Positions 2,706 to 45,911 of a stretch of 64,000 nucleotides of DNA are shown in pieces (within the stretch, counting starts at the first letter, position 1; each line of letters begins with the position of its first letter). The stretch comes from Rugosibacter sp. (GTDB lineage Bacteria; Pseudomonadota; Gammaproteobacteria; Burkholderiales; Rhodocyclaceae). The notes under the pieces were generated by a model. The model was given only the letters and a program-made list of their open reading frames with translations, did not search any database and was not told the DNA's origin. The stretch is taken from assembly GCA_004322535.1 (NCBI GenBank), contig SCUZ01000083.1:1-64000 (forward strand). Direction: 5' to 3'. The position numbers and the translations under genes were made by a program.

Positions 2706-2752
2706 TGGTCGGGGCGAAAGGATTCGAACCTTCGACCCCTTGCACCCCATGC
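2706..2752 (-). repeat. attL: 3' part of tRNA-Pro left at island end
   Basis: On the minus strand this is the last 47 bases of a tRNA-Pro, from inside the anticodon stem (GCATGGGGTGCAAG) through the T-arm and acceptor 3' strand to CCA. It aligns in the same orientation with the intact tRNA-Pro at 45835-45911. The 20 bases 2733-2752 are identical to 45862-45881; the 11 bases at the CCA end and the T-loop are also identical, while the T-stem differs (GAAGG/CCTTT here). No 5' half of a tRNA precedes it. It is therefore an attachment-site remnant, not a working tRNA. Confidence 0.85.
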
Positions 2753-2843
2753 TGGGGAGCAAACCAGAGCTGTATATTAATCAGTTGGTTATGGCGGCGC
2801 TCGCTACGCTTCAAGCCGAACGATTGACAACAGTTTATAACAG

Positions 2844-2863
2844 AGTCGCGTAAAAGTCGCGCA
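2844..2863 (+). repeat. Island-end motif, left copy (putative integrase arm site)
   Basis: AGTCGCGTAAAAGTCGCGCA, identical to 45768-45787 and in the same orientation. It contains AGTCGCG twice, eleven bases apart. It lies 92 bases inside the left attachment repeat. Doubled short motifs near both ends of an element are typical of arm-type binding sites of tyrosine recombinases; that role is inferred. Confidence 0.65.
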
Positions 2864-3018
2864 CTCAGTTTGCGCTTCTATGCATAATTCTTTTGCGTCT
2901 TGGCATTCAAAGAGTGATATTTCCAGAATGCCAGAATCACCTGAGGCAACAATATAGCCCACCAAAGTGATGGAGTCCGCACCTTACATCATTCACAATA
3001 GAGGCTATAAAATGAACT

Positions 3019-3035
3019 TGATACATTAAGTATCA
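3019..3035. promoter_or_regulatory. Inverted repeat upstream of ietA
   Basis: TGATAC and GTATCA flank a 5-base spacer, just ahead of the ietA start. Position suits an operator for autoregulation, but nothing else supports it. Together with the attachment and arm repeats, this is what the gene-poor stretch 2639-3057 holds. Confidence 0.35.
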
Positions 3036-3057
3036 GATATCGGGATTGATTCACATC

Positions 3058-4098
3058 GTGGCTAGCTCGGAACAACTCAAGGCACTTATCAAATCGCACA
3101 TCAGTCGCGACGATGGTCATTTCTATTCTGTTGCGATGCAGATGGCGGCACACGAGGCTAAGCTTGGCCATGGCAAACTGGCGGAAGAGTTGCGGGACAT
3201 CATTGACGCCGCAAAGGTACGGCTCGGAAAAGATGCCACCGGAAAGTTGGTACCTATCGGCAGTGCATCCAAACCGCGGGGTGAGCTTGCGAACCTTCTC
3301 ACGGTAACCTACCCTGCCAGTCGGCTCGCAGACATGGTGTTGGATGATCGGGCCGCCAATCAATTGAAGCGCATCATAAAAGAGCAGCGATTATTGGCGC
3401 GCATCAAAGAGCATGGGCTCTCCCCACGTCGAAAGCTGTTGTTAGTTGGCCCACCGGGAACCGGCAAGACGATGACCGCGTCCGCCTTAGCAGGCGAGTT
3501 GGGCATCCCGCTGTTCCTTGTGCGACTCGATTCGCTAATTACCAAGTTCATGGGTGAGACGGCAGCCAAGCTGCGTCAGGTGTTCGATGCCATCGCTGAC
3601 CTGCGCGGCGTCTACTTTTTCGACGAGTTCGATGCAATTGGATCGCAGCGGGGAATGGGCAATGATGTGGGCGAGATTCGCCGTGTGCTGAACAGCTTCC
3701 TGCAGATGATCGAGCATGACCAGTCCAACAGTCTGATCATCGCTGCAACCAACCACCCCGAAGTTCTCGACTACGCGTTGTTCCGCCGTTTTGATGATGT
3801 GGTGGAGTATCGCTTGCCTACATCCGCACAGGCGCTTGATCTGATCCGCTCGCGCTTGGGGTCGTTTGCCCCCAAGCCTTTCAAGAAGGACGGCCTGCTA
3901 GAGCAGGTGGAAGGTTTGAGCTACGCTGAGATTTGCCGCGCTGTGGACGAATCTATCAAGGACGCGATCATGCATGACCAATCTAAAGCGCAACGGTCTG
4001 TGCTTGGGCATGCGCTAGAGGAGCGCCGCCTCATCAGTACAAAGCAGGCCCAGAATAACAAGCACACGTCAAACGATGTCGGATCAAGCACAAGATAG
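3058..4098 (+). CDS. ietA: AAA+ ATPase, IetA-like (partner of IetS protease)
   Basis: A 346-residue AAA ATPase. A helical N-terminal region (residues 1-100, SSEQLKALIKSHIS) precedes one AAA module with Walker A GPPGTGKT (131-138), Walker B VYFFDE (185-190), a sensor-1 Asn in AATNHPE and a likely Arg finger at RRFD (243-246). It overlaps the protease gene by 23 bases in a different frame, which implies coupled translation. AAA ATPase plus subtilisin-like protease pairs of this layout are known as IetAS: in Agrobacterium Ti plasmids IetA acts as antitoxin and IetS as toxin, and homologous pairs are listed among anti-phage systems. The start is uncertain: GTG 3058 gives the family-like N-terminus, while TTG 3046 adds four residues; neither has a strong ribosome site. 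Confidence 0.8.
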   Translation: MASSEQLKALIKSHISRDDGHFYSVAMQMAAHEAKLGHGKLAEELRDIIDAAKVRLGKDATGKLVPIGSASKPRGELANLLTVTYPASRLADMVLDDRAANQLKRIIKEQRLLARIKEHGLSPRRKLLLVGPPGTGKTMTASALAGELGIPLFLVRLDSLITKFMGETAAKLRQVFDAIADLRGVYFFDEFDAIGSQRGMGNDVGEIRRVLNSFLQMIEHDQSNSLIIAATNHPEVLDYALFRRFDDVVEYRLPTSAQALDLIRSRLGSFAPKPFKKDGLLEQVEGLSYAEICRAVDESIKDAIMHDQSKAQRSVLGHALEERRLISTKQAQNNKHTSNDVGSSTR

Positions 4099-6619
4099 GC
4101 GCCCGCATCTTGTATTAACCAATACCTCCAAGGCTCAGCCATTCACCGCCCCTTCGGCCGGTGGCGGAGGAGCAGTTGAAATCCCCAAGCCAAATCGTGC
4201 TCAGCACGGCGCCGCGCTTCAAGCACAACTGCTCGCACTCAAGCCTATTGCCGAGCAGGCTGTCGGTATTCAAACAGAGAATGGTCTCCAAAGCGGCCTC
4301 GGCTTGCAGATTCAATTTGTCGGTCTGCCAGATGTCGCACTTGCCTTTGAAAGCCTGGGGGATGAACGTGGCAGCGACCAAAGCAGGCAGATCGAAGTTC
4401 TAAGCGTTAGAGCTGATGGCAATAGCACAGTTGCCAACGTCTTTGTGCCAGATGGGAAGCTCGAACACTTCGAGAAGTACGTGACCGAATACCTGGCAGC
4501 AAAGACGAACAAAAAGGGTGGGTTGATCGACCACGGTACGCTGCTCAACGCCATAGCGTCTATTCGTAGCGCGGAACTTCGTGCTCTTTGGACCGATGAA
4601 CCCGCGCTGCTCCCTCAGGATATGGCTGAGCAGTTCTGGTGGGAGGTTTGGTTGCCGATGCGGGGGCGTCGGAATGATGTGGTCGAGGATTTCCGAAAGT
4701 TGGTTGGTTTGGCCGAATGTCAAGTCAGCGAGCACCAGATCAACTTCCCTGAGCGCACCGTGGTGCTTATGTTCGGGTCGCAGCAACAGCTCGCGCAGTC
4801 TGTAATGACGTTGAACTGTGTAGCCGAGTTGCGCAGGGCAAAGGATACCGCCGAATTCTTTGATGGCATGACGCCACCCGAGCAACAAGAGTGGGTTGAT
4901 GAAACACTGGCAAGACTTACGCTGCCACCTGACGCAGAAACGACCCCTCGGGTCTGTCTGCTTGACTCGGGCGTTAACCGGGGACATCCATTGCTTGCGC
5001 CGCTCATCGCCAGCGACGACCTGCACACGGTAAATCCCGCTTGGGGCACCGATGATACCGCCAACCACGGGTCAGGTCTTGCTGGACTCGCAGCCTTTGG
5101 AGACCTGACCGACACGCTCGCTTCCAACGATCCAGTATTGTTGGCGCATCGCTTGGAATCCGTAAAGCTCACACCCGAACATGGAGCGAACCAAGGAGAT
5201 GCGAAACACCACGGCTATCTTTTTGTAGAGGCAGTCAGCCGTCCAGAGATAGCGGCTCCAACCCGGCCTCGTGTTTTCACATCGGCAGTGACTTCAGATG
5301 ATGACCGTGATCGTGGCAGGCCTTCCGCATGGTCAGCTACGGTTGACACGCTTGCCGCCGACTACAACGGCGATGGACAGTTCCCGCGTTTATTTGTTCT
5401 CTCTGCGGGCAACACTAACAACGAATTGGCATGGAATACCTATCCGGCTAGTTTAACTACAAACCGTATACACGATCCTGGACAGGCATGGAACGCTCTC
5501 ACGGTTGGCGCCTATACCAACAAGGTTCTCATCACGGAGGACGACGCTCAACATTTCCAGCCTATTGCACCTGCTGGTGGTTTGAGTCCTTACACCACAA
5601 CCTCAGGCGATTGGAATCAAGCTTGGCCACTAAAACCTGACGTAGTCTTTGAAGGCGGTAATGTTGGCAAGAGCGACGACGGTTCGGCGGGAATTTCGAG
5701 CCTGCATCTGTTGACGACAAACAACCTACCGATTGAGCGCCTATTCACCACCACCAACGCGACCAGTGCGGCATCGGCCTTGTGTGCCCGCATGGCAGCT
5801 CAACTTATGGCTGCTTACCCGGCACTACGGCCCGAGACCATTCGTGCGCTCATCGTTCACTCTGCGGAGTGGACGGATGCTATGCGCGATGCCTATTTGC
5901 CAACCCACAAGACCCCAACCAAGTCGGACTATGTTCATCTAATTCGGCATTGTGGCTGGGGTGCACCGAACCTCGACCGAGCGATGTGGAGCGCCGGCAA
6001 CTCGCTGACCTTAGTTGTCGAGGATGTAGTGCACCCATACAAAAAGGTCAAAGGCAAAGGTATTGTGAGCCGCGACATGAATCTGCATTCACTACCTTGG
6101 CCGAGAGAACAGCTTCAAGCATTGCCGCCTGATACCAAAGTAGAACTGTGGATCACGCTATCCTATTTCATTGAACCAAACCCTTCGGCGCGTGGCACGT
6201 CCTCCAAGTTTCACTACCCATCACACAGGCTTCGCTTTGACGTTCAGCGGCCATTAGACGCAACGACCGAGGACTTTGTCGCGCGAATCAATGCAGCAGT
6301 CGAACGCGAAGATGACGACGACCCCATCGATCCCAAAGACCCAAATTGGGTTCTCGGTGACCTGAAGCGGCATCGTGGCTCACTTCATCAAGATATCTGG
6401 CGAGGTACGGCTGCTGAGTTGGCCAGTCGTGGCTATATCGCTGTCTACCCAGCCAAAGGCTGGTGGCGCACACGTCAGGCGCAAGAACGCTATGACTTGC
6501 CCGCCCGATATAGCCTCGTCGTCTCAATCCGCACGCCTCAGACTGATGTGGATCTGTACACCCCAATCGCCCAACAGGTAGCTACCCAGGTCGGCGTGCA
6601 GGTTGTCGTGGACACATAA
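4076..6619 (+). CDS. ietS: Subtilisin-like S8 serine protease, IetS-like
   Basis: An 847-residue protein without signal peptide, hence cytoplasmic. Residues 1-280 are a non-catalytic N-terminal region. The S8 domain follows, with Asp297 in CLLDSGVN, His331 in NHGSGLAG and Ser564 in ATSAAS, and the oxyanion Asn in LSAGN near 445, so the triad is complete although the His box (HGSG rather than HGTH) is divergent. About 250 residues follow the catalytic Ser and end in a predicted beta-rich tail. In IetAS the protease is the toxic or effector part and the AAA ATPase restrains or feeds it. What triggers it here is unknown. Convergent or downstream partners are absent; the pair stands alone next to the left island end. 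Confidence 0.8.
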   Translation: MSDQAQDRRPHLVLTNTSKAQPFTAPSAGGGGAVEIPKPNRAQHGAALQAQLLALKPIAEQAVGIQTENGLQSGLGLQIQFVGLPDVALAFESLGDERGSDQSRQIEVLSVRADGNSTVANVFVPDGKLEHFEKYVTEYLAAKTNKKGGLIDHGTLLNAIASIRSAELRALWTDEPALLPQDMAEQFWWEVWLPMRGRRNDVVEDFRKLVGLAECQVSEHQINFPERTVVLMFGSQQQLAQSVMTLNCVAELRRAKDTAEFFDGMTPPEQQEWVDETLARLTLPPDAETTPRVCLLDSGVNRGHPLLAPLIASDDLHTVNPAWGTDDTANHGSGLAGLAAFGDLTDTLASNDPVLLAHRLESVKLTPEHGANQGDAKHHGYLFVEAVSRPEIAAPTRPRVFTSAVTSDDDRDRGRPSAWSATVDTLAADYNGDGQFPRLFVLSAGNTNNELAWNTYPASLTTNRIHDPGQAWNALTVGAYTNKVLITEDDAQHFQPIAPAGGLSPYTTTSGDWNQAWPLKPDVVFEGGNVGKSDDGSAGISSLHLLTTNNLPIERLFTTTNATSAASALCARMAAQLMAAYPALRPETIRALIVHSAEWTDAMRDAYLPTHKTPTKSDYVHLIRHCGWGAPNLDRAMWSAGNSLTLVVEDVVHPYKKVKGKGIVSRDMNLHSLPWPREQLQALPPDTKVELWITLSYFIEPNPSARGTSSKFHYPSHRLRFDVQRPLDATTEDFVARINAAVEREDDDDPIDPKDPNWVLGDLKRHRGSLHQDIWRGTAAELASRGYIAVYPAKGWWRTRQAQERYDLPARYSLVVSIRTPQTDVDLYTPIAQQVATQVGVQVVVDT

Positions 6620-7554: not shown

Positions 7555-8844
7555 TCACGTAGCTTTGAGTCGCGCAGCCATGTCACGGATAACGGCATAG
7601 CGAATTGTCCGTAACGTCCTAAGCTCCCCGGCACGGACAGCTTCATTGATGATTGGCATTTGCTCGAAGGCCGTATAAACAACGTCAGCTGCCTTCTCGA
7701 TCTTATCGGTGAACTCGTCCATCAAACGATTTGCCGTTCGCTTCGAAGCGCCAATATTTTCGGCGAAAGCAATATAGTTCTGACGGTTCACCGCATCGAA
7801 TGTGGTGGCCTCGCCAATTTGCATCGTCAGTGGCGTCATGGGCCAGCGCGGTGTATTGCCGATCTCGGCACGATAAGACTCGGTCGAGACCAAGTCGTAG
7901 AAAGGTGCCAGCTCAATCCCTGTCGCTTTCACCAGGAAGGAAAGATTCTTGAGGTGAGCATCTCCATTGCCCACCAACAGGTTGAACAACGCCCAACTGA
8001 GAAGATTCTGCCGCACAAGTGCCCGGTTCTGACACATCGCAATGCATCTCACGAGGGTTTCAGCGCCGGCCTGCTGGTACTTGAAAGTCCGATCCAAACC
8101 GAGCAACTGGCAGGCATCGATGACGTGAAGCCGCATGGATTCGCTGCCAATCGCTTTGCGGTCGAAGCGTTCGATCAAATAGACCGGATCAGGTACATAA
8201 CGTATCTCAACCTCGGGCACAGACAAGCCCATCGCCAGCGCCAGCCGCATAACAAAAAACTCATTGGCCACGGAGTGTGGATAGAGATCGGTGTCTTGAT
8301 GCTCGGGCTTCAGAATATGTGTGGATGGCGTATCTCCCACCGGGTGATAGAGCTGCCCTTCCCTGACACAAATGGCGATCTTGTGCTGGGCGCCGGCCAG
8401 CGACATACGCTTGGGCGCACCGGCCGCCAGCCCTTTATGCGGCAATTGCGCAATTCGCGCATGCAACTCTTCATCAGACAGAAGCTGATAGCCCGAATCC
8501 GGCGATGCCTCGCCTGGCGCGAGCAGTGTGATGGCGCCGGCAGATTCGCGGCCATAGTAAGCAAGCAGCCCGAAGGCGTCGGCGGAAGGGATGTTGGCAT
8601 CCTGGGCCAGAAGATCCCGTGTCGTCTCCTCTGGCAGCAGGTTGTCGAAGAACCACTGGACCGGACGATCCGAAGCGCCGTCGAGCGTTTTTTCGGCGGA
8701 TCGCGGCAGATTTGGCGCGAGGTCAAAACTGTCCTTGGATTTTGCCCAGGCGGGATCGTATTCGAAAGACCAGATGCCGCCTTCGTCACACAGGGTGCCG
8801 ACCGCCACCCGATTGATCGTGGCAATGAGGCGACGTTCACTCAT
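7555..8844 (-). CDS. hipA: HipA-type serine/threonine kinase toxin
   Basis: A 429-residue HipA family kinase. The N-terminal subdomain carries PVQWFFDNLLPE and the couplet domain; the ATP loop region is SLAGAQHKIAI; THILKP holds the ATP-binding Lys; VPEVEIRY and VYLIERFDR follow; the catalytic loop is GNGDAHLKNLSFL near residue 295; and APFYDLVS takes the place of the DFG segment. Known HipA toxins phosphorylate aminoacyl-tRNA synthetases such as GltX or TrpS, stop translation and cause dormancy. The start overlaps the hipB stop by four bases (ATGA), the normal antitoxin-first layout. All key kinase motifs are intact, so the toxin is probably active. Confidence 0.9.
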   Translation of the reverse strand: MSERRLIATINRVAVGTLCDEGGIWSFEYDPAWAKSKDSFDLAPNLPRSAEKTLDGASDRPVQWFFDNLLPEETTRDLLAQDANIPSADAFGLLAYYGRESAGAITLLAPGEASPDSGYQLLSDEELHARIAQLPHKGLAAGAPKRMSLAGAQHKIAICVREGQLYHPVGDTPSTHILKPEHQDTDLYPHSVANEFFVMRLALAMGLSVPEVEIRYVPDPVYLIERFDRKAIGSESMRLHVIDACQLLGLDRTFKYQQAGAETLVRCIAMCQNRALVRQNLLSWALFNLLVGNGDAHLKNLSFLVKATGIELAPFYDLVSTESYRAEIGNTPRWPMTPLTMQIGEATTFDAVNRQNYIAFAENIGASKRTANRLMDEFTDKIEKAADVVYTAFEQMPIINEAVRAGELRTLRTIRYAVIRDMAARLKAT

Positions 8845-9095
8845 CGTGTCGTCGCTTTCTTGACGGTATTCGGCTCAATCCCGGACGGCAGTTCAAGATG
8901 TACACGAATTCCCAATTCCTGCAGCAGTTCGAGCAGTTTACCGATCTGTGCTGTTGGTTTTCCCTTCTCAACCTCGCCGACGAATGTATGGGAAAACCGC
9001 GCCACGGCATCCTGACGCAACCCCTGCTGCTTTCGGGTCTTTCTAATGATCTTGCCGATGGTGTCGAGCGAATCAACAGGGATCATCGTCGCCAT
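8841..9095 (-). CDS. hipB: HipB-type antitoxin (Xre helix-turn-helix)
   Basis: An 84-residue Xre-type regulator: helix-turn-helix at about residues 12-60 (TIGKIIRKTRKQQGLRQDAV, then FVGEVEKGKPTAQIGKLLEL) and a short basic tail (VKKATTR). In the family HipB binds HipA and represses the operon through palindromic operators. Two CATATG-centred palindromes lie directly upstream. It is cotranslated with hipA. Confidence 0.88.
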   Translation of the reverse strand: MATMIPVDSLDTIGKIIRKTRKQQGLRQDAVARFSHTFVGEVEKGKPTAQIGKLLELLQELGIRVHLELPSGIEPNTVKKATTR

Positions 9096-9109
9096 ATCAA
9101 GCTCCTTAA

Positions 9110-9174
9110 ATAGCCATATGGCTATCTTTTATCACAAACCAAGGCAAAGATCAAAAATAGTAGTCATATGGCTA
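9110..9174. promoter_or_regulatory. Paired operator palindromes of hipBA
   Basis: ATAGCCATATGGCTAT at 9110-9125 is a perfect 16-bp palindrome. TAGTCATATGGCTA at 9161-9174 repeats its core with one mismatch. Both lie within 80 bases upstream of hipB, centre to centre about 50 bases apart (near five helical turns), which suits two HipB dimers acting together. Assignment as operators is inferred from position. Confidence 0.65.
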
Positions 9175-9305
9175 TTTTTTGCGGAGAGGGAGCCGTATCC
9201 GCCAGAATCTAGCCAGTTGAATAGTTTTATCAGCTCGCTACCAGACACAAGTCTGGATAGCGTGGATTCAAGAAGTTGATGCTCGAAGGTAGTGGCACCA
9301 CCACA

Positions 9306-9584
9306 TCAACTGAAAAACTCGCTATCGGAGCCAAGCCTGGCTAGCTCTAAGGTTTCAGCATCAGACTTGCGGTAGATCAGCAGCAAGTCGGGGTTGACGT
9401 GGCATTCACGATAGCCTGCCCATCCACTCAAGTCATTATCGCGATATCGGGCGTCCAGTGGCCGGTCAGTTGCCAGCGCCTGCAAAACAGGCACCAGACA
9501 TTCATCAAGCGTCGCCCGGTGTTGACCTTTGGCTTCGCGCTTGTAGTCGCGCCTGAAAGCCGATGGACGTTCAATCGTTTTCAT
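9306..9584 (-). CDS. yafQ: YafQ/RelE-family mRNA interferase toxin
   Basis: A 92-residue RelE-fold toxin. It opens with a basic helix (IERPSAFRRDYKREAKGQHR), then GWAGYRECHVNPDLLLIYRK, the hallmark region of YafQ where His and Asp act in mRNA cleavage on the ribosome, and closes with LARLGSDSEFFS, whose LxRxGSHSELF-like end is the family signature (Asp replaces the common His). The gene overlaps its antitoxin by 14 bases. Confidence 0.88.
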   Translation of the reverse strand: MKTIERPSAFRRDYKREAKGQHRATLDECLVPVLQALATDRPLDARYRDNDLSGWAGYRECHVNPDLLLIYRKSDAETLELARLGSDSEFFS

Positions 9585-9837
9585 GCAAATCGGCCATCAG
9601 GGCGTCAACACTGGCAAAGCGCTTACCCTTGCCAGCCTGAAGCTCGGCAATAGCCTTTCGTGTTGCGGCATTTGGTACTTTCACCTCGAAAGGTAGGCGC
9701 TGCTCATCGGCGATGCGCATCATCAACAGCCGAATGGCATCGGAGATGGACAAGCCCATCGCTTCCAGCGCATCGGAAGCCCGCTCCTTGGTTGCGGTAT
9801 CGATGCGGGCACGGACGTAGGTATCAGCGGTACTCAT
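9571..9837 (-). CDS. dinJ: RelB/DinJ-family antitoxin
   Basis: An 88-residue antitoxin. Residues 1-40 are the ribbon-helix-helix DNA-binding part (ARIDTATKERASDALEAMGL, then SISDAIRLLMMRI); the C-terminal half (LPFEVKVPNAATRKAIAEL) is the toxin-wrapping part. ATG at 9837 is preferred because GGAG lies seven bases upstream; ATG at 9849 would add four residues. Order and overlap with yafQ are standard. Confidence 0.85.
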   Translation of the reverse strand: MSTADTYVRARIDTATKERASDALEAMGLSISDAIRLLMMRIADEQRLPFEVKVPNAATRKAIAELQAGKGKRFASVDALMADLHEND

Positions 9838-9872
9838 GGCAATCTCCATAGATTGGTTCCTGAATGCATACC

Positions 9873-10430: not shown

Positions 10431-11309
10431 TTACTTAGATTCCTTGATCAATTCGTTGCGAATCGACAATAATTCCTTCTTGCGGTTTGCGTCGGTTTCC
10501 GGATAGTGCATTTTGAGTGTGTTGAAGGTATCCAGAACGATTCGGGAAACGATCAGGCGGGCGTTCTCCTTGTCATCTGCGGGTACCACATACCACGGCG
10601 CCTCTTCCGTACTTGTTGCGCTCAAGCATGCTTCGTAAGCTTGCATGTACTTATCCCAGTATTTCCTCTCTTCAATGTCGGCAACGCTAAATTTCCAGTT
10701 CTTGTCCGGATCATCGATGCGATCGAGAAAGCGCTTGCGTTGCTCCTCCTTCGACAGGTGAAGAAAGAACTTGATGACCCGCGTACCGTTCAGATGAAGA
10801 TGGTGTTCAAGATTCACGATGGAATGATATCGATCCTGCCAGATCGTATTCTGGTCGACGATACCATCCGGCAGCCGCTGACCGAGCAGAATTTCCGGAT
10901 GCACGCGAACGATCAACACTTCCTCGTAATAGGACCGATTGAATATCCCGATGCGGCCGCGTTCCGGCAGCGACTGTGTCGTGCGCCAAAGAAAATCGTG
11001 ATCCAGTTCGGTGGCGCTTGGATGCTTAAAGCTGAACACCTGGCAGCCCTGCGGGTTGATGCCAGACATCACGTGTCTTATTGCGCCGTCCTTGCCGGCG
11101 GCGTCCATGGCCTGGAAAATCAGTAGCACGGCGTAGCGGTCGGAGGCATAGTGAACGCGCTGTAGCATGCTCAACTCGTCCACGTGTTCCTGCAATATCT
11201 TGGCGTAAGCCTTCTTCGATTTGTACACGGACTTTACGAGCGTGGGCCATTTTTTGAGATTGACCAATTTCCCTTCCTGTACACGGTAATCGTTGGAGTC
11301 TATTTTCAT
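10431..11309 (-). CDS. ppk2: Polyphosphate kinase 2 family (class III-like) phosphotransferase
   Basis: A 292-residue PPK2 enzyme. Walker A-type loop [11 protein letters not shown] lies near residues 66-76, followed by [24 protein letters not shown], the Walker B-like [17 protein letters not shown] and the lid region [15 protein letters not shown], then [15 protein letters not shown]. These are the standard PPK2 motifs and the version with DAAGKDG and NRSYYEEV points to class III, which can phosphorylate AMP and ADP from polyphosphate. ATG 11309 is preferred over the upstream starts because AAGGA lies about six bases before it. With the polyphosphate-glucokinase-like gene at 37.2 kb it suggests use of polyphosphate as an energy store. 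Confidence 0.88.
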
Positions 11310-12539: not shown

Positions 12540-12740
12540 TCTTCAACCCGCAGGATGCATTCTGTGTGTGATGAATTGAGCAGCGGGGATTGTCTGGATG
12601 GAACTGTTACGATGCTGCAATGGTTCTGTAAGATTTGTTGCTGCCGGTAGTCGATTCCATCTTCCAATGCCAAGGAAGCCGCGCTTGCTGAGAATAAATG
12701 TATGGGCACAAGTCCCGCATGGCTTTGAGAGGAGACTCAC

Positions 12741-13121
12741 ATGCAATTGACTGTCATTTCCGCCATATTGGTTGCCATCCTTAGCGGTGTCTTCGCGATG
12801 CAGAACAATGTACCGGTGACGGTTAACTTCCTTCTCTGGCGCTTCGACAGTTCCATCGCCATGGTTTTACTGGTGGCGTTGGCCATCGGGGCATGCGTCA
12901 TTGCCCTGTTGACAACACCTGCCACGCTGAAACGGCAATGGCAGTTGTCGCGACAGAAACGCAGTATCGAAGAGTTGGAAAAAACCTGTACTACCCTGCG
13001 CAGCAGGATTGGCGAACTGGAAGCCCATTTACCTCCCGAGGCTGCGGCAGAACCGCCACCCTATGTCGGACTGAAACAAATCATCCTCGGCAGGGGGAAC
13101 GATCCATCCGATGCATCGTAA
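12741..13121 (+). CDS. LapA-domain (DUF1049) inner-membrane protein
   Basis: A 126-residue protein with two N-terminal transmembrane helices (residues 5-22 and 42-62) and a cytoplasmic coiled coil (LSRQKRSIEELEKTCTTLRS). The VFAMQNNVPVTVNFLLWRF motif between the helices is typical of LapA-domain proteins; LapA with LapB controls lipopolysaccharide assembly in E. coli, though many paralogues have no known role. The C-terminal PPYVGLKQIILGRG is repeated nearly unchanged in a second copy at 38042-38425. GAGAGGAG precedes the ATG at a good distance. Confidence 0.82.
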   Translation: MQLTVISAILVAILSGVFAMQNNVPVTVNFLLWRFDSSIAMVLLVALAIGACVIALLTTPATLKRQWQLSRQKRSIEELEKTCTTLRSRIGELEAHLPPEAAAEPPPYVGLKQIILGRGNDPSDAS

Positions 13122-20520: not shown

Positions 20521-20523
20521 GGC

Positions 20524-36390: not shown

Positions 36391-36392
36391 TC

Positions 36393-37260
36393 ATGCAAAA
36401 ACAAATCGACGCACTAATGATTGCTGCGATGGGGCATACCGACGCAATTGCCCGTGTCGTTTTGATCCTGATCGCGATTGCCGTGTTGCTAAATCTGACG
36501 CGACGGATAATTCCCCGCGTTCGAGATTACATCGCTTCGCAACAGAGCAATCAGGAGGACAGTCGCCGTGTCCTGACACTGTCCAGGGTGTTACGTTATT
36601 CCATCAATGTTGCGATTGTCGTAATCGGCGGCATGCTCATACTGGGTGAAATCGGTATCTCTGTCGCTCCGATTCTTGGTGCGGCCGGCGTCGTCGGTCT
36701 GGCGATCGGCTTTGGTGCGCAAAGTCTGGTGAAGGACTATTTCACCGGATTCTTCCTGTTGCTGGAGAACCAGATTCGTCACGGGGATGTCGTCGAAACA
36801 GGGGGGGGGGAAATCAGGCTTGGTAGAAGAGCTCACATTGCGTTACCTGAAGCTGCGTGATTACTCAGGCAACGTGCATTACATTCCCAACAGTAATATT
36901 TCTACCGTTACCAACATGAGCCTCGGTTTTGCGTATGCCGTAATTGACGTAAGCATCGCCTACAGCACGGATATTGACCACGCTATCACGGTAATGCGCG
37001 CTGTCGGCGAGAGCATGAGACAAGAAACTATGATCCGAGACAAGCTACTGGAAGATATCGAAATAGCCGGTGTCGAAAATTGGGCTGACTCGGCCATCGT
37101 CATCCGCTGCCGCCTCATGGTCGTCCCTTTGGGCCAGTGGGATGTAAGGCGTGAATACCTGAAAAAACTAAAAGAAGCATTCGATCAAGCCGGAATTGAA
37201 ATCCCCTATCCACACGTCAAGCTGGTGACATCACAAACCGTTGGAAAGCAGATTGCCTGA
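36393..37260 (+). pseudogene. MscS-family channel interrupted at a G10 tract
   Basis: The first frame (from ATG 36393) gives two to three membrane helices and the pore helix [19 protein letters not shown], then [20 protein letters not shown]. At 36801-36810 ten consecutive G shift the frame, and it ends at 36860. The remaining beta domain is read in the next frame ([20 protein letters not shown], then VHYIPNSNISTV) to 37260. Nine or twelve G would restore one protein of about 288 residues. A G run of this length can vary by slippage, so the gene may be switched on and off rather than dead; an assembly error is the simple alternative. It follows the GH15 gene by two bases. Confidence 0.82.
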
Positions 37261-38440: not shown

Positions 38441-39328
38441 TTATGATTCCGGCTTGTTCCGCATGGTAACAAATCGGCGAGATCGCATCTCGCATTTACC
38501 GTTTTCCTTGACCTCATACATCAATTCATCGGCAGCTTTCAGCATTGCGGGAAAAGTACGGTCAGCTGCGCCAAACCATGCTACGCCAACGCTTACCGTC
38601 ACAGGGGAAAATTCTTGAAGTGCGTGAATAATCACCGATGAAATCTTGCGCCCGGTCACCGTCGCTTCTTCATACTCCGTTTCTGGCAACAGAACGGCAA
38701 ATTCGTCGCCGCCAAATCGGGCGGCCAGATCGGTCGAGCGTATGGAGGCCAGCAGCGCCTTCGCTGTTGTTTTCAATGCAGCGTCTCCCACGGCATGACC
38801 TTTGGTATCGTTGAGCTTTTTGAAGTTATCCAGATCAAGAAACACAACAGCCAGAGGGTGTTTGTAGCGAATTGCGCGCTCCACTTCGGTAACGCCAGCC
38901 TCAATAAACACGCGCCGATTCAAAAGCCCCGTCATCGCATCCCTGGTCGCATATTCGTGTTCGCGCGCGAACTGTAGCCGAACCTGGGCCGCAAGTAATG
39001 CCACCAGACTATAGGTCAGTAAACGTGTTATCGCATTTGCCCAAGGTATCCAAAGGGCGTTGAATTGCGATACGGAGACAATGTCTACCATCGCCAATAC
39101 GGAAGCAGATAAAACGGCCATGAGCACACCGCTTTTCTTTCCCCCTATCCATGCGATAGCCAATACGGGCAACAAAGCTATTGAAGCCAAGGTGAAGTCC
39201 GCGTCGGTGGCCGTCCTAATCAAACCGAGCGAGCAAACGAAACTGACGCATATCAGCCATGACACCCATCGGCGCCAACCAGTCCAAAAATCAGCCATGA
39301 GTAATCTAGTTGCCCCTAACTTGATCAT
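38441..39328 (-). CDS. Membrane-bound diguanylate cyclase (GGDEF)
   Basis: A 295-residue protein. About five to six transmembrane helices fill residues 15-120, followed by a GGDEF domain (AMTGLLNRRVF, VVFLDLDNFKKLNDTKGHAV, ARFGGDEFAVLLPET). The active motif is intact, and an inhibitory RxxD site (RSTD) lies five residues before it. It should make cyclic di-GMP from two GTP at the membrane. Its input domain is not recognised. Confidence 0.9.
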   Translation of the reverse strand: MIKLGATRLLMADFWTGWRRWVSWLICVSFVCSLGLIRTATDADFTLASIALLPVLAIAWIGGKKSGVLMAVLSASVLAMVDIVSVSQFNALWIPWANAITRLLTYSLVALLAAQVRLQFAREHEYATRDAMTGLLNRRVFIEAGVTEVERAIRYKHPLAVVFLDLDNFKKLNDTKGHAVGDAALKTTAKALLASIRSTDLAARFGGDEFAVLLPETEYEEATVTGRKISSVIIHALQEFSPVTVSVGVAWFGAADRTFPAMLKAADELMYEVKENGKCEMRSRRFVTMRNKPES

Positions 39329-39454
39329 TTAGTCTCTTTCGGTCCTGGGCGGAGTCCTGTATCAATCACAGAGTAATGTCGCGACGTTTCACAGGAGTCG
39401 GTGTTTCAAAAATAACTGAATGCTCCGCGCGCGAAACAGCCTGCCTGCGTTGTG

Positions 39455-40378
39455 TCAAATTGCTCCGCCAGCATCACTATTTTTTCCCAGTCGAATATTC
39501 AGAGGCGGCAAATCAGTCAACTCGAACGTCGCCGAGGCCAATCGTATTCGATTGGTCGACTTGTCCACTTCTTCAAGCATGCGGGTAAATAGCCGATCTT
39601 TAACCGTTCTTCGCTTGCGATAGTCGACAATATAACGCGCAGTGAATTCAATCCAGTTGTCGTTCGCTTCCATGGTGATCATCGGCTCCACCTGGGCATC
39701 TTCCAGCTGATATTTCCTGACTGCCTCATCCCATGCCTTACGCGAGTGCAGCGCATGATCACCGCAGATTTCATTCACTACACCTCTCAGAGTCTCACGG
39801 GCGAACTCCCAATCCGATCCATAGCGCACAGGCAGGGTAATTTCGTCCCAAAGAAACGGGAAATCTGCGGAGTAGTTGAATACTGGTTCCTTCAATACAA
39901 AGCTATTCGATATACGGACGATACGTCCGTTGTATAGATCGCCCTTTACCCATTGCCCGCACTCCATCAACGTGGTTCGTAGCACGCCGATATCGATTAC
40001 ATCGCCGCGAATGCCATTTAACTGTACGCGATCCCCTGGCCGGTAAAAACCGCCGAATGACAGCGCTACCCAACCGGCAATACTGGCGATGACTTCTTGC
40101 AAGGCAAAGGCTATACCGGCACCCGCGACTCCAAAGGCTACGGTCAATTGCCCCAAACTACTGCTGTATACCCCCGTGACAAGCAGGAACGCCACACCAT
40201 AGCCGAGAAAGGAAACGATCTTGCGCGCACGGTACCGAGTTTCAGAGTCTTCAATGCGGCGCGCCATCGCCCTTTGAAGAAAATGAACGCTTCCAAAGAT
40301 GAATATTATCCCCGCAGCGGCAGCCGCCAATTTACCTACCGTCGGGTCATATAGCCAGCCTTGAATAGTTGCTTCCAT
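39455..40378 (-). CDS. MscS-family channel protein
   Basis: A 307-residue protein with three transmembrane segments (residues 15-35, 55-75, 80-110) and an MscS pore region AFGVAGAGIAFALQEVIASI. The beta domain starts PGDRVQLNGIRGDVIDIGVL, and RIVRISNSFVLKEPVFNYS follows. The C-terminal half (residues 170-300) is larger than in MscS. Likely an osmotic release valve or a related channel. Confidence 0.82.
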   Translation of the reverse strand: MEATIQGWLYDPTVGKLAAAAAGIIFIFGSVHFLQRAMARRIEDSETRYRARKIVSFLGYGVAFLLVTGVYSSSLGQLTVAFGVAGAGIAFALQEVIASIAGWVALSFGGFYRPGDRVQLNGIRGDVIDIGVLRTTLMECGQWVKGDLYNGRIVRISNSFVLKEPVFNYSADFPFLWDEITLPVRYGSDWEFARETLRGVVNEICGDHALHSRKAWDEAVRKYQLEDAQVEPMITMEANDNWIEFTARYIVDYRKRRTVKDRLFTRMLEEVDKSTNRIRLASATFELTDLPPLNIRLGKNSDAGGAI

Positions 40379-40443
40379 TGTCGTTTACCTGAGGTGAGGC
40401 GCGCTATAAAGAGTTCCATTTTCTTTGGGTAAGTAAGGTGGCC

Positions 40444-42141
40444 TCATTTACTGGTCTGAAATCGAAATGACGGAGTACTGTAGTCTTTAGGCAGATAGTC
40501 TGTTGGCACTGCGGCATTGTTCCCATCGCGCAGCGCTCCATAATGCGGTGACATAATTTCGACCCCGGCACCGTTGAAACCATCCGGGATGTTCTGATGC
40601 AAATCAGAATAAATACGTGCCATTGAGGCGGGCTGGTTCGTATAAGCGTTCAGTTCATAACTGACATAAAAGTCATCCAGACTGGTCTGTAGGACAAAGG
40701 GCTTGGGATCATTCAAAATATCCGAAGTTAGAGTTGCGGCAGCGATCAGCAATTCATGAACCTGGCGCCATGGCACGTCGTAACCGATGGTTACACTCGT
40801 ATGCAGAATCAGGCCGTGCTCTTTTGCTGAAGTGCTGAAATTGACGATATGACTGCTTAGCACCATTGCATTGGGGATGGATGTTTCAACATTCTTGATA
40901 GTACGAACGCGCGTCACCAGTAAAGTCTTATCAACTATATCGCCGACGGTATCGCCAATTTTCACCCTGTCGCCAATTTGAAATGCTCGCGTGTAAGTCA
41001 GTACCACTCCCGCGACAATATTGCTCACCGCCGACGTAGAGCCTAGAGAGAAGAGCACGCCTAAGAAAACCGAAATGCCCTGAAAAGCGGGTGATTGGGC
41101 ACCGGGCAGGTATGGAAACATGACGACAGCCGCGAATGCCAGGATCAGGAATCTGCATATCTTGAACGTCGGATCGGCCCAGTCAGCATAAAAACCCGAA
41201 GGCCGAATCGTTCCCTTGTCAATTTCGGTGAAAATAAACCTCGTGAGTTTGATCGAATAAAACGTGACCACTGAGATAACACCAATGAAAAAAATATTCG
41301 GCAAAAATGCGATTGCTGCCGCCAAAACCATACGGACAGGACGCAGAATGAATTCAATAAGAATGGCGGTCCATCCCTGCGTCCACGGGAAAAAACTGAA
41401 GACCAATGTAAGGTAAAAATAAAATAACGATGCCATGGTGCCGATCTTTACCACCTTAACCAGCGAAACTAACAAGCTAGCTATACGTTCCGCAGAAAGC
41501 AGGGTGACCCGTTGAATCCGCAATGCCCGAATGTGGTATCCCTTGCTTGCTACCAGTTTTTGGCACACTCGTGCGGATATCTTTCCTGAAAGGTAGAAGG
41601 CAAGGATCAGGACAACCGTCGCAAGTGCAGTCCACGCTGCGCCGAAAGTAAGAGACTCGACGCTGTAGTCGTGTTGCATGTCTCTCACAACAGACTTTAT
41701 GATCTGCGCATACTTCGCCGCCAATTCCTGGCGCGACAGGCCAGCTTCGGCCCCATCCTGGTCAATGACAGCCATGATCACAACATCAGCGGCAACGATT
41801 TCGGTATTGGTCTCCATCTCCTCTACATGTATCTCGTCCAGCGAAAATTTCGGATCTTCATACAGCTTTCGGATTCTTTCCGAGACAAGTCTGGCCCGCT
41901 CTTCCGCGGATACCGAGTAGATTTTTTCCTGCACACTGAACAACGTTTTATCCCTCAGTTTTACGGGGTACGACTTGGACACGCTAATTGGTCCGGATGT
42001 TGATACTTTTGCCTGTTCCAAAGACGGTGCTTGTTTAACCGCTGCCGGTGGCTGTCCATAAGCCATCTCAATGCTGACAGAGAGACATAGAATGATCAGC
42101 AACCGACAAAAGAGTCGCATCAAGTTTTGTAGATCGGTCAT
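40444..42141 (-). CDS. Large MscS-family channel with N-terminal periplasmic part
   Basis: A 565-residue protein. A signal-like segment (LFCRLLIILCLSVSIEMAYG) precedes a periplasmic region of about 130 residues (EERARLVSERIRKLYEDPKF and YAQIIKSVVRDMQHDYSVES), then four to five transmembrane helices between 165 and 345. The MscS core is at FQGISVFLGVLFSLGSTSAV and FQIGDRVKIGDTVGDIVDKT, with IPNAMVLSSHIVNFS after it. Close relatives are annotated as small-conductance channels of the YnaI/MscM type. ATG 42120 (MRLFCRLL) is an equally possible start. It follows the smaller MscS gene by 65 bases on the same strand. Confidence 0.82.
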   Translation of the reverse strand: MTDLQNLMRLFCRLLIILCLSVSIEMAYGQPPAAVKQAPSLEQAKVSTSGPISVSKSYPVKLRDKTLFSVQEKIYSVSAEERARLVSERIRKLYEDPKFSLDEIHVEEMETNTEIVAADVVIMAVIDQDGAEAGLSRQELAAKYAQIIKSVVRDMQHDYSVESLTFGAAWTALATVVLILAFYLSGKISARVCQKLVASKGYHIRALRIQRVTLLSAERIASLLVSLVKVVKIGTMASLFYFYLTLVFSFFPWTQGWTAILIEFILRPVRMVLAAAIAFLPNIFFIGVISVVTFYSIKLTRFIFTEIDKGTIRPSGFYADWADPTFKICRFLILAFAAVVMFPYLPGAQSPAFQGISVFLGVLFSLGSTSAVSNIVAGVVLTYTRAFQIGDRVKIGDTVGDIVDKTLLVTRVRTIKNVETSIPNAMVLSSHIVNFSTSAKEHGLILHTSVTIGYDVPWRQVHELLIAAATLTSDILNDPKPFVLQTSLDDFYVSYELNAYTNQPASMARIYSDLHQNIPDGFNGAGVEIMSPHYGALRDGNNAAVPTDYLPKDYSTPSFRFQTSK

Positions 42142-42374
42142 GGGTATCGCTCGTCTTTGCGCAACTTTTTGTAGATTACGATCTATGATCCCGTGACGTC
42201 AGGAGTATCGGCTGCAACCGTTATAGTTTCTACTAAGCAGATCCTCAATATTATATACACGACGGACACCAAACCTCATTTCGCCGTTGTCTGTTAGCCT
42301 GAGATAGCGACTGGATCAATCGGTTTCAGTCAGAAAGGGGAGGTGACTTCTCCTTCCTCCTCTTTCGGAAGCGA

Positions 42375-43447
42375 TTAACACCGTTTGAGCAATTCCTCAA
42401 ATTGCGCGATTGGTAGAGGCTTGCTGAATAAATAACCTTGGTACTTCATACAGCCATGATCCGCGAGAAAAATTCTTTCCTCTTCGGTTTCCACGCCTTC
42501 GGCAATAATGTCCAGACTCAGGCTTTTCGCCATTGCAATGATGGTGATCACAATAGCCCTGTCGTTTGGATCCGTGGAAATGTCCCGCACGAATGACCGG
42601 TCGATTTTGAGTTGGGCAAGCGGTAGCAGCTTGAGATATTGCAGCGAAGAATAACCAGTGCCAAAATCATCAAGTGAGAACCCGATGCCAATTCTCTTTA
42701 ACCTGTCCATCGTCACGATTACGTCTTCGATATTCTCCAGTAGCATGCCTTCGGTGATTTCTAGCTTGAGACGGGACGGATCAACGCTGTAGCTTTGGCA
42801 GTACATTTCCACTTGGGCCGCGAAATCTGCTTGATGAAATTGCCTGGCACTGACATTCACCGACAACACCAAATCACGCGTGAGTACATCGTGGTGCCAC
42901 ACCTCAAGTTGTGCGCAGGCGGATTCCAAAACCCATTGCCCTATCGGAAGAATCTGTCCAGTTTCTTCAGCCAGTGGAATAAATTCCCCCGGAAGCACAA
43001 CAGCGCGTACTGGGTGGATCCAACGAATCAACGCCTCAGCCCCGACCGGACGAGAAGCGCCATCTATCTGTATCTGGTAATACAGACTGAATTGTTGTCG
43101 AACTAGCGCATGACGTAATACCGTCCCCAAGGAAACCCGTGCATTGATGCTCTCCTGCATTTTTGGGTCGAAGAATCGAATGGTATTACGACCTGATTTC
43201 TTGGCCTGATACATGGCGATATCAGCCCTTTTCAATAACTCATCGGTCGATACGGAATCGTCGCTGAACAGGATCGCTCCTATGCTGGCACTACCATGAT
43301 ATTCACCCGACTCAAGCACAGCCACTTGGCACAGAGCGACGAGAATTTTCTCGGCGACAATTTCACTTTGAGTTGCTGCCTCAACGGGTTGTTCGTTCAA
43401 GTCCAGCAGCATTACCACAAACTCATCTCCACCGAGACGCCCCACCG
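42375..43447 (-). pseudogene. GGDEF-EAL protein truncated at its 5' end
   Basis: The frame begins inside a GGDEF domain (GTVGRLGGDEFVVML), lacks its first half and any sensor domain, and then has a full EAL domain: GAEALIRW, NVSARQF, LKLEITEGML, DDFGTGYSSLQYLK, KIDRSFV and IAEGVETEEER, all catalytic residues kept. Upstream of about 43447 the matching DNA gives way to a plasmid gene on the other strand. The ATG at 43445 is internal to the domain and has no ribosome site, so expression is doubtful. The EAL part alone could cleave cyclic di-GMP if made. Confidence 0.8.
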
Positions 43448-43814: not shown

Positions 43815-44287
43815 TGGATACACGGCGCCTGCGGGCGACCATCTTCGAGCATAGCGGGATCGCGGTCGAAGACGGCGATCCGATCATGGCGGTGTTGGTG
43901 GCGTCAGCGCACCAAACGGAAGAAATTGGCGCACGCCTGTTGCGCCGAATGAGTCCGGTGCGCGTCGTAGTAGCCGTGGCGATCACGGGGTTTGTGTTCG
44001 CCACGGCGGGCAGTCTCGTTACCTGGCGCGTTGAACAGCGGCTGTTTGCTGTTGAACGCGCTGACTGGATGCGCCAGCAAAGCGATCCACGCCGGGAAGC
44101 GCTGCTGCGCTCCGGTCAGGGGGTGGCTGCGCTGGCGCTGGCGGAGTCGGGAGTTGCTGAACTGCTCGCCAAGTGCAATGGTCGGCGCTCTTGGCGAGTC
44201 GAAGACGGGTATTGCATTCCAGCAACGCCGGATGGCAAACCCGATGGTTTCAGGGTCAGAGTAAGTCCTCGGATGGATGGGACATGA
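43814..44287 (+). CDS. Plasmid mobilisation/stability protein (StbC/TraM-like)
   Basis: A 157-residue protein: a soluble start (RLRATIFEHSGIAVEDGDPI, then MAVLVASAHQTEEIGARLLR), one transmembrane helix near residues 60-80 (VVVAVAITGFVFATAGSLV) and a C-terminal part of unknown fold. The opening on a variable DDPI motif followed by a membrane helix recalls StbC and TraM proteins encoded after stbB on plasmids, and the gene is in that place. ATG 43814 is coupled to the StbB fragment stop; ATG 43808 is two codons longer. Function uncertain. Confidence 0.5.
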   Translation: MDTRRLRATIFEHSGIAVEDGDPIMAVLVASAHQTEEIGARLLRRMSPVRVVVAVAITGFVFATAGSLVTWRVEQRLFAVERADWMRQQSDPRREALLRSGQGVAALALAESGVAELLAKCNGRRSWRVEDGYCIPATPDGKPDGFRVRVSPRMDGT

Positions 44288-44315
44288 CACACACCATCGT
44301 CCAATAGGCCAACAA

Positions 44316-44729
44316 ATGACAACCTCTGCGGCCATCTTGCCTCGCTTCATTCGCATGAGCGATGCCCCTCGGTACTTGGGCATGTGCCGTACTGTCTTCA
44401 ATCAAACGGTACGTCCACATGTCAGGGAGTTCCCCATAGGCAAACAGGGCATTGCATTTGACCGAACCGAACTTGATCGTTGGGCTGACTCCTATGTTTC
44501 CGGTCAAGCAATTGACAAAAAAAGCATTCTGGCGGACGATTCTATGCGTAGCGAGCGTCGCCATAGTGACTTTGGAGGTACACAACTATGGCACGCAAAT
44601 CAATCAGCGGACTCACGCTGCGAGGTGGTATCTGGCACATCAACAAGGTCGTCAAAGGCCAACGAATTTACGAAAGCACTGGATCTAGTTCGAGGGAAGA
44701 GGCAGAACGCTTCCTCATCCACCGCCTAG
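44316..44729 (+). CDS. Helix-turn-helix protein, probable excisionase
   Basis: A 137-residue protein. Residues 1-65 form an AlpA/excisionase-type winged helix (RFIRMSDAPRYLGMCRTVFN, then REFPIGKQGIAFDRTELDRW); the rest is polar and probably unstructured (SGTSTRSSKANEFTKALDLV). Its last 142 bases overlap the integrase start in another frame. The tail still looks like the tail of related proteins encoded before integrases, so the overlap is probably real. It likely guides excision of the island and may regulate the integrase. Confidence 0.68.
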   Translation: MTTSAAILPRFIRMSDAPRYLGMCRTVFNQTVRPHVREFPIGKQGIAFDRTELDRWADSYVSGQAIDKKSILADDSMRSERRHSDFGGTQLWHANQSADSRCEVVSGTSTRSSKANEFTKALDLVRGKRQNASSSTA

Positions 44730-45766
44730 AAAGACTTCGGCAATCGACGGTCTATGGTGTACGTCAGGTACGACAGTGGCGCGAGGCTGCAACAAAGTAT
44801 CTGCTGGATTTCCAGCACCAGCCGTCGATTTGGCTGACCGCTCTTTATCTTGAACAGCTTGACCCGTTCATCGGCGACCTTCCTTTGACTCACATTGACG
44901 ATGAAGCTCTGCGCCCATATGTAGAGTTCAAAAAAAATGAGACCGTTACCCTAGACGGCAAGAAAAAGAAGGGGGTCGGCAATAGAACGGTGAACATCGC
45001 TCTGCAAAGAGTAGTGCGTGTCTTGAATCTTTGCGCCAGGAAATGGCGCGACGAAAACAAGAAACCATGGCTCGATACCGTGCCGATGATCACCATGCTT
45101 GACGAGAAGAAAGGTAAACGTCCGCCCTACCCTCTTTCCTGGGACGAGCAGAAGTTTTTCTTTCGCGAGTTGCCTGACCATCTGAGAATCATGGCGCTAT
45201 TTAAAGTAAATGCAGGTTGCCGTGAGCAGGAGGTTTGCAAACTCAGTTGGGCATGGGAAATCGAAGTGCCGGAGTTGGAAACAAGTGTGTTCCTGATCCC
45301 CGCTGAATTTGGCGGGCGCTTCGAGAAATCCGGAGTGAAAAATCGGGAGGAAAGGCTTGTAGTGTTGAACGACGTGGCGAAATCGGTCATTGATGGACAA
45401 CGCGGGTCGCACCCTGTTTGGGTTTTTCCTTACGAGGGTCGCGCCCTGCACCGAATGAACGACTCGGCATGGCGGAAGGCACGCAAGAGGTCTGCTGTGA
45501 AGTGGAAAGAGGAAACAGGAAAAGAACCGCACCAATATTTTGACCAGGTGCGCGTCCATGACCTCAAACACACCTTCGGACGGCGGCTTCGTGCGGCGGG
45601 TATTTCAGAGGAGGATCGTCAAGTGTTGCTGGGCCACAAGAACGGCAGCGTGACGACCCACTACTCGGCAGCAGAACTGTCGAACCTGATAGCCTCAGCC
45701 AACAAGGTAGTTGCGACCGATTCGCGGAGTCCTGTGCTAACTATTCTTAGAAGAAAGGTAGCCTAG
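44588..45766 (+). CDS. Site-specific tyrosine recombinase (island integrase)
   Basis: A 392-residue integrase. The arm-binding and SAM-like core-binding parts take residues 1-170; the catalytic domain holds Arg in NAGCREQEVCKLSW, HDLKHTFGRRLRAAG, LLGHKNGSVTTHY with His and the nucleophile Tyr. The second catalytic Arg of HxLRH is Lys here (HDLKH); many island integrases of this branch appear to share that. It ends 68 bases before the 3' end of the intact tRNA-Pro, the standard place for an enzyme that uses that tRNA as target. ATG 44588 follows GGAGGTACACAACT. Confidence 0.9.
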   Translation: MARKSISGLTLRGGIWHINKVVKGQRIYESTGSSSREEAERFLIHRLERLRQSTVYGVRQVRQWREAATKYLLDFQHQPSIWLTALYLEQLDPFIGDLPLTHIDDEALRPYVEFKKNETVTLDGKKKKGVGNRTVNIALQRVVRVLNLCARKWRDENKKPWLDTVPMITMLDEKKGKRPPYPLSWDEQKFFFRELPDHLRIMALFKVNAGCREQEVCKLSWAWEIEVPELETSVFLIPAEFGGRFEKSGVKNREERLVVLNDVAKSVIDGQRGSHPVWVFPYEGRALHRMNDSAWRKARKRSAVKWKEETGKEPHQYFDQVRVHDLKHTFGRRLRAAGISEEDRQVLLGHKNGSVTTHYSAAELSNLIASANKVVATDSRSPVLTILRRKVA

Positions 45767-45767
45767 A

Positions 45768-45787
45768 AGTCGCGTAAAAGTCGCGCA
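45768..45787 (+). repeat. Island-end motif, right copy (putative integrase arm site)
   Basis: AGTCGCGTAAAAGTCGCGCA, identical to 2844-2863, two bases after the integrase stop and 47 bases inside the tRNA end. Confidence 0.65.
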
Positions 45788-45793
45788 AAAATG

Positions 45794-45817
45794 AAAAAGC
45801 CAACCGTCAAGGTTGGC
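45794..45817 (-). terminator. Rho-independent terminator of tRNA-Pro, supplied by the island
   Basis: On the minus strand GCCAACC TTGAC GGTTGGC is followed by TTTTTC, 17 bases past the tRNA 3' end. Because it lies inside the attachment repeat it is carried by the island, not by the original chromosome. Confidence 0.8.
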
Positions 45818-45834
45818 CTAAGTCATTGAATCTT

Positions 45835-45911
45835 TGGTCGGGGCGGCGGGATTCGAACTCGCGACCCCTTGCACCCCATGCAAGTGCGCTACCAGGCTGC
45901 GCCACGCCCCG
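45835..45911 (-). tRNA. tRNA-Pro (anticodon GGG)
   Basis: A 77-base tRNA with encoded CCA. Acceptor CGGGGCG/CGCCCCG is fully paired, D-stem GCGC/GCGC, anticodon stem CTTGC/GCAAG with loop ATGGGGT (anticodon GGG, codon CCC), T-loop TTCGAAT. The T-stem GCGAG/CCCGC has one A-C mismatch (52-62). The 3' part from the anticodon arm on was supplied by the island on integration; the displaced original 3' part is at 2706-2752. Confidence 0.95.

Follow-up and report, generated by a model that had tools for sequence, protein, structure and literature searches.

The 64,000-base window analysed here, bases 1–64000 of contig SCUZ01000083.1 (our C8) in a 2.57-Mb Rugosibacter sp. genome assembled as 115 contigs, carries a 43.1-kb segment inserted at a tRNA-Pro gene. 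With a probability of roughly 0.85, we regard the DNA between two 20-bp tRNA cores as an inserted element whose phage-type integrase recombines those cores, while the N-terminal domain of the same enzyme is predicted to hold a paired GTCGCG motif found inside both ends.

A 43.1-kb insert at tRNA-Pro

A single ARAGORN call, with which Rfam concurs, places a tRNA-Pro (GGG) at 45835–45911 on the minus strand. An earlier note on this DNA had described a tRNA-Pro fragment that shares an identical 20-bp block with this intact gene, and indeed the fragment at 2706–2752 matches the 3' 47 bases of the gene at 87%, and the exact core CGACCCCTTGCACCCCATGC occurs in the window solely at 2733 and 45862, the two cores being 43,129 bases apart. 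Its account of what lies beside them also held: an intact integrase frame (44588–45766) ends next to the intact tRNA, a decayed integrase of another subfamily lies beside the fragment at about 1581–2638, and the motif AGTCGCGTAAAAGTCGCGCA stands inside both ends, at 2844–2863 and 45768–45787, on the plus strand in each case. The flanks and ends are laid out as follows.

1–1515: chromosomal left flank with an oxidoreductase end, a SnoaL-like gene and yceI (Pfam for 109–702 and 897–1463; alignment to relative G007)
1516–2655, plus strand: insert of ~1.1 kb holding a decayed tyrosine integrase that belongs to another subfamily (unaligned in G007; relatives often beside tRNAs)
2656–2732, minus strand: 3' end of the host's own tRNA-Pro, displaced, with its T-arm (GAAGG/CCTTT) and a native-like terminator (98-base alignment to G007 at 91%)
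2733–2752, minus strand: left copy of the 20-bp tRNA-Pro core (exact match)
2779–2791, plus strand: perfect match to the IHF consensus WATCARNNNNTTR
2797–2805, plus strand: GCGCTCGCT block, 44 bases after the core
2844–2863, plus strand: left putative arm-type site, two GTCGCG units at an 11-base spacing (motif search)
44277–44729, plus strand: small gene overlapping the integrase start, candidate excisionase (phrog_13517; excisionase family phrog_66 weakly, 1.9e-4)
44588–45766, plus strand: tyrosine integrase (Phage_integrase 3e-13, PHROG integrase, structure model and fold match)
45768–45787, plus strand: right putative arm-type site (motif search; equivalents after the integrase in related loci)
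45835–45911, minus strand: intact tRNA-Pro (GGG), with the core copy at 45862–45881 (ARAGORN, Rfam)
45941–50187, minus strand: chromosomal right flank with a MerR-type regulator, an HU/IHF-type protein, pheT and pheS (Pfam)

Comparison with relatives revealed the empty site. We searched for the right-flank gene pheT in 61 genomes, including the window's own, and matched it in 57; among the 29 relatives' loci returned, ARAGORN found a tRNA-Pro (GGG) beside pheT in 26. Joining the window's flanks at the core produces a tRNA-Pro that ARAGORN accepts and that is identical, at 77 of 77 bases, to the genes of four genomes of the same genus (G004, G005, G006 and G007), and those of G002 and G008 differ from it. 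In G007, a complete genome, the tRNA-Pro is followed by a terminator and then by yceI, snoaL and the oxidoreductase end, which correspond to window bases 1–1507. This stretch aligns to G007, and 1–1553 to G004, at 94%; in G008 a tRNA-Pro has snoaL and the oxidoreductase end no more than about 2.3 kb away, at 73–74% identity. The joined flanks and the synteny with G007 establish that the 43.1-kb segment is a real insert at tRNA-Pro, lacking in G007, as the earlier note had proposed. The same DNA was not encountered at a place unrelated to tRNA-Pro, and AGTCGCGTAAAAGTCGCGCA, at up to two mismatches, has two copies in the 2.57-Mb genome, one inside each island end, and no others.

Left of the 20-bp core, the fragment and the intact tRNA have different, internally paired T-arms, and the terminator that follows the fragment resembles the one beyond the relatives' own tRNA-Pro. 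The intact tRNA carries another paired variant, GCGAG/CCCGC, which is also that of G002. Because the window's tRNA has this variant and the displaced fragment has the native T-arm and terminator, the insert appears to have brought its own tRNA 3' part: on insertion, the element would likely have supplied the 3' part with GCGAG/CCCGC, and the host's own 3' end (GAAGG/CCTTT) would have been pushed, with its terminator, to the element's far side.

Two relatives, G004 and G005, carry the right end of the element in decayed form (L034 1–1039 and L037 1–1019) after the native T-arm, and the DNA that follows has no match to the window's frames. From these decayed copies, similar elements seem to have visited the tRNA-Pro site before.

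The DNA left of 2706 had been taken for an older island. We rejected this beyond about 1.1 kb, as the sequence left of 1515 is chromosome shared with G007 (1–1507) and G004, and DNA that is extra relative to G007 is limited to about 1516–2655; leftward reading ends at window base 1, where the contig starts. Two pieces of the decayed integrase were scanned with Pfam, and the C-terminal piece (2376–2666) alone scores as Phage_integrase. In 17 of 19 loci read for its relatives, a tRNA (Arg, Ser, Thr, Lys, Asn or Val) lies within about 1.5 kb, which makes it plausible that an earlier element at the window's tRNA-Pro was the source of this gene. No second tRNA-Pro fragment bounding the small insert was found in the genome, where the next-best matches to the tRNA 3' half are the tRNA-Pro (CGG) gene and then stretches 19–31 bases long. 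Since homology to G007 extends beyond the fragment to 2656, the small insert could have landed beside the tRNA-Pro rather than in it.

The integrase and its predicted attachment site

The integrase frame stops one base before the right copy of AGTCGCGTAAAAGTCGCGCA, a motif that had zero occurrences in 100 shuffles of the window at up to three mismatches. Between the core and the left copy lie a GCGCTCGC block and the IHF-like site. The integrase itself has 6532 relatives at E ≤ 0.001 among 7999 scored, the closest of them 82% identical, and is 64–66% identical, over all 392 residues, to the proteins of eight phage records; plasmid records yielded three Pasteurella matches at 52–53% identity. 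In the structure model, the catalytic part folds like the Tn1549 and lambda integrases.

We read 80 integrase loci, mostly from Pseudomonas but also from Azotobacter, Stutzerimonas, Alcaligenes, Pantoea and a Pedosphaera bin. A tRNA lies within 700 bases downstream of the integrase in 66 of them and is always Pro (GGG), ARAGORN calling none in the remaining 14. A two-unit direct repeat with a spacing of 11 or 12 bases follows the integrase in 74, and in all 80 a homologue of the candidate excisionase is found no more than 600 bases upstream; we infer that the gene at 44277–44729 encodes an excisionase. Eight further order-level matches were sampled, the window's included; the more distant of these have Pro (GGG), Pro (CGG) or Arg (ACG) next to them. 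In the window, a TAAGTCATTGA block (45800–45834) adjoins the tRNA 3' end on its outer side, and a loose TAAGT..TG pattern matches such a block in 71 of the 80 integrase-side ends.

Matching motifs at the two ends are a property of the family as well. A core search of 50 genomes gave 33 core-bounded segments, one for every pair of neighbouring cores listed on one contig. Scored for the match between the arms at their two ends, these summed to 530.5 against a mean of 343.5 for shuffled ends, and none of 10,000 shuffles (maximum 437.5) reached the observed score. Two of the segments, the first of G077 and the outer of G097, come from a different integrase family, whose arms are TTTTGCGC; among the 31 elements of the window integrase's family, the arm sequence is alike at both ends in 29. 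With 24 of the 33 segments at 41–58 kb, related elements appear to be mostly phage-sized prophages. A scan for the 11-base arm pattern, made with 40 of the 80 loci, also showed same-strand pairs, separated by 12.9 to 55 kb, in 8 of 40 genomes. A GCGCTCGCTG/GCGCCCACTG-type block lies 43–46 bases after the core in 37 of 40 distal ends of related elements; these ends were listed by hand, and some of them have no partner on their contig. The second integrase family (L188, L246, L249, L271), whose elements have TTTTGCGC arms at either end, also targets this tRNA-Pro and is stacked with the window-type family in Pseudomonas.

The same arrangement is present, uninterrupted, in phage DNA. Free attachment sites (attP) in phiPSA1, psageB2 and the Achromobacter phage CF418P1 run in the order integrase, arm, terminator, tRNA-Pro 3' end, GCGCTCGC block, arm; the record SC_8_H2H8_2017 instead runs on into a whole tRNA. 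These three phages share with the island an integrase of 64–65% identity, the tRNA-Pro core, two arms in the same orientation, the GCGCTCGC block and a small gene upstream of the integrase. They differ from it in that they are phages, whereas the island has no recognised phage structural gene, and in their arms, which are GTCACT or GTCCCC rather than GTCGCG. The features that define the phiPSA1 type are all found in the island: an integrase homologous from end to end, an adjoining tRNA-Pro (GGG), direct arms at both ends and a GCGCTCGC-type block ~44 bases after the core. When the window integrase was the sole query against IMG/VR, no relative was confirmed; a search by arm motif gave one. The IMG/VR contig L344 (IMGVR_UViG_3300048579_000117) has a free attP in the phage order, the window's GTCGCG arms and T-arm variant, the N-terminal GLTQRDGIWHINKV and an integrase 64% identical to the window's. 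Unlike the island it is a viral contig, of about 53 kb, and the comparison covers its integrase and attP region.

The predicted attP layout is a new example of a classical kind. Pairs of 11-bp arm sites beside the core are described for cluster K mycobacteriophages (PMC3203893), in a study that compares only a few phages; there, by contrast, the target is tmRNA and the arms are partly inverted. Prophage 04 of Pseudomonas fluorescens Pf-5, according to PMC2647930, is a phage remnant in tRNA-Pro; we liken it to the island by description, and it differs in being a 13.5-kb defective prophage. Six arm strings had no occurrence in the literature searched, a body of work whose scope excluded most subscription papers.

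The IHF-like site has counterparts elsewhere. Eight IMG/VR sites share the arm motif at other tRNAs, and seven of them have a perfect match to the IHF consensus, where 0.08 would be expected; among the 40 Pseudomonas-type distal ends, 17 come within one mismatch, against 3.8 expected. We infer use of IHF at attP, with a stronger case for the window than for the Pseudomonas elements. Separately, AGTCGCGYAAAAGTCGCG is present in 11 IMG/VR contigs (L340–L350) and may be a widespread attP arm; a GACCCC tRNA-like string, which is a weak test, lies within 250 bases in nine, and ARAGORN called a tRNA-Pro (TGG) in L340 and a tRNA-Arg (TCT) in L343.

In the mechanism that we propose from these sequence comparisons, the integrase at 44588–45766 would cut and rejoin the 20-bp cores, and its N-terminal domain would bind the paired GTCGCG motif inside both ends, so that AGTCGCGTAAAAGTCGCGCA is likely the integrase arm-type site. 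IHF would bend the stretch between the core and the left arm, and the product of 44277–44729 would act as the excisionase.

Arm classes and the integrase N-terminal domain

The arms of the 74 loci fall into classes: GTCACG (20 loci), GTCCCG and its variants (34) and GTCACT (20). Arm class was left unassigned in the other six of the 80 integrases (L110, L111, L114, L143, L146 and L153), which were dropped from class comparisons. Integrase residues 9–30 vary by arm class, with WHIDKK accompanying GTCACG, WQIDKV accompanying GTCCCGA, WHINKV accompanying GTCGCG (in the window and L344), and WKIDK plus one extra residue accompanying the 12-base GTCACT arms.

Several observations weigh against the proposed mechanism. 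HDLK replaces the usual HxxR in all 81 integrases read, so activity of the enzyme is not to be taken for granted, and for the same reason we liken it to lambda Int in its working and do not call it a standard member; the replacement sets it apart from the lambda and Tn916/Tn1549 integrases, and its match to their type of arm-binding N-terminal domain, with three strands and a helix, is weak. The N-terminal model gave weak structural matches, of which the top one is unrelated, and no Foldseek match at E ≤ 0.001, a search in which a missed family is no evidence of absence; nor did the domain have a sequence match to any solved structure. Two of the 31 family elements, both in G087, are without clearly matching arms. 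A perfect IHF consensus is present in 2 of the 40 Pseudomonas-type distal ends (0.24 expected) and in none of the three tRNA-Pro phage attP sites, one of which comes within one mismatch. The GTCGCG arm is also found beside the cores of other tRNAs with divergent integrases, and is not private to one N-terminus. Finally, nearest neighbours predicted arm class correctly for 70 of 74 integrases by residues 1–34 and for 69 of 74 by residues 63–392. We rejected the idea that the N-terminus predicts arm class better than the rest of the protein, and with prediction this nearly equal, shared ancestry alone could explain it.

It is a comparison at matched identity, and this alone, that separates the N-terminal link from ancestry. 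Among pairs whose identity over the rest of the protein was 0.82–0.90, N-terminal identity had a mean of 0.87 and a minimum of 0.74 within arm classes (182 pairs), as compared with a mean of 0.65 and a maximum of 0.71 across classes (186 pairs, L136 excluded); the pairs share members, and this is not an independent-sample test. L136 is a chimera: its N-terminus is T-type, its arm is A-type and its final stretch does not differ from that of A-type integrases. Such a natural mismatch between arm and N-terminus would be expected from recombination between stacked elements. Co-variation of arm sequence and integrase N-terminal residues is also proposed for mycobacteriophages in PMC3203893. Somewhat short of even odds, we tentatively suggest that arm motif and N-terminal domain could form an interchangeable lock-and-key module, moving between integrases independently of the target tRNA, a reading in line with the matched comparison and with the use of the GTCGCG arm by divergent integrases at other tRNAs.

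We also considered arm classes as a rule for stacking and found no evidence for one. The outer neighbour has a classifiable arm at 8 of the 40 distal ends, where seven pairs differ and one agrees (an earlier count by eye gave nine and two); with several classes similarly frequent, most pairs would differ anyway.

Cargo and alternative histories

Forty of the island's frames were scanned with Pfam, and 10 each with PADLOC, NCBIfam and PHROGs. The predicted roles of the cargo lie in ion and osmotic balance and in defence against phages.

3046–6619, plus strand: IetA and IetS defence genes (PADLOC IetA 5e-75, IetS 1.3e-35; AAA, Peptidase_S8)
7555–9849, minus strand: HipA-like gene and YafQ-RelB toxin-antitoxin pair (Pfam)
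11454–16127, plus strand: MscS-type channel, LapA-domain protein, Na/H exchanger and DUF389 protein (Pfam)
16811–24014, minus strand: N-type (alternate F1F0) ATPase operon and S30AE-domain frame (eight NCBIfam models above cut-offs; S30AE)
28802–30175, minus strand: ClC-type chloride channel (Pfam)
31595–36390, plus strand: trehalose-phosphate synthase and phosphatase, GH15 glycosidase (Pfam)
38441–43445, minus strand: GGDEF protein, two MscS-type channels and EAL protein (Pfam)

Two genes look broken: an MscS-type gene at 36165–37260 is split over two frames, and a class-I aldolase frame at 26472–27119 covers the first 210 of 349 profile positions. Within the scanned set, which is short of all the island's frames, no capsid, terminase or tail gene was found in the 40 frames (Pfam) or the 10 (PHROGs), and no relaxase or type IV secretion gene in the 40; no recognised island gene accounts for transport between cells.

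Of 399 genomes sampled from the order, 19 besides the window's own have close relatives of the N-ATPase beta subunit. In stretches of up to 40 kb around the N-ATPase in 11 of these, a window-type integrase was found in none, a nearly full-length homologue of the EAL protein in four, and a homologue of 10506–11126 in six; this last is a 206-residue frame without a Pfam, PADLOC or PHROG match. The literature regards N-ATPases as genes that have moved laterally. The Burkholderia pseudomallei enzyme is proton-coupled, according to PMC5376962.

This cargo bears on how the element was assembled. Only the ends and the integrase might have come as a phage-type element, with cargo added later and stepwise, so that the 43 kb never moved as a unit. 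We consider this unlikely, even though the related elements are mostly prophages of phage size and the island's cargo is not phage-like, and N-ATPase operons stand elsewhere in the order without a window-type integrase in the stretches read. No transposase was recognised in the 40 frames scanned, however, and G+C is even throughout the island, at 0.54.

Markedly less probable is a phage satellite, which would bring integrase, excisionase and attP but, lacking capsid genes, would have its phage-sized DNA packaged by a helper phage. The phage integrase and phage-type attP are consistent with this, and 43.1 kb is inside the size range of the related prophage-like segments, an agreement that may be chance. 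Small elements with the same ends also exist, at G096 C11 428172–441260 (13.1 kb) and G081 C94 28576–37499 (8.9 kb), each possibly a satellite or a remnant. Yet no packaging or capsid-redirecting gene was recognised in the frames scanned, and cargo like the island's is not known to be typical of satellites.

It is scarcely credible that the 20-bp motif should be a repeat of some other kind, such as a regulatory site, and stand at both ends incidentally, given its two genome copies and the equivalents that flank the core in phage DNA and recur at each end in 29 of the 31 family elements.

Read as an element inserted by its own phage-type integrase, the island is an example of an N-ATPase operon within a bordered element. 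Many tRNA-Pro prophages and islands are marked at their two ends by paired GTCNC motifs and a GCGCTCGC-type block, and their borders could be called from sequence alone. Arm recognition by integrases has so far been worked out in a few model phages. The general interest lies in the arm-class series more than in the window alone: if true, the series is a natural set for reading the arm-recognition code of a phage integrase family, and it would make arm recognition testable across a large family.

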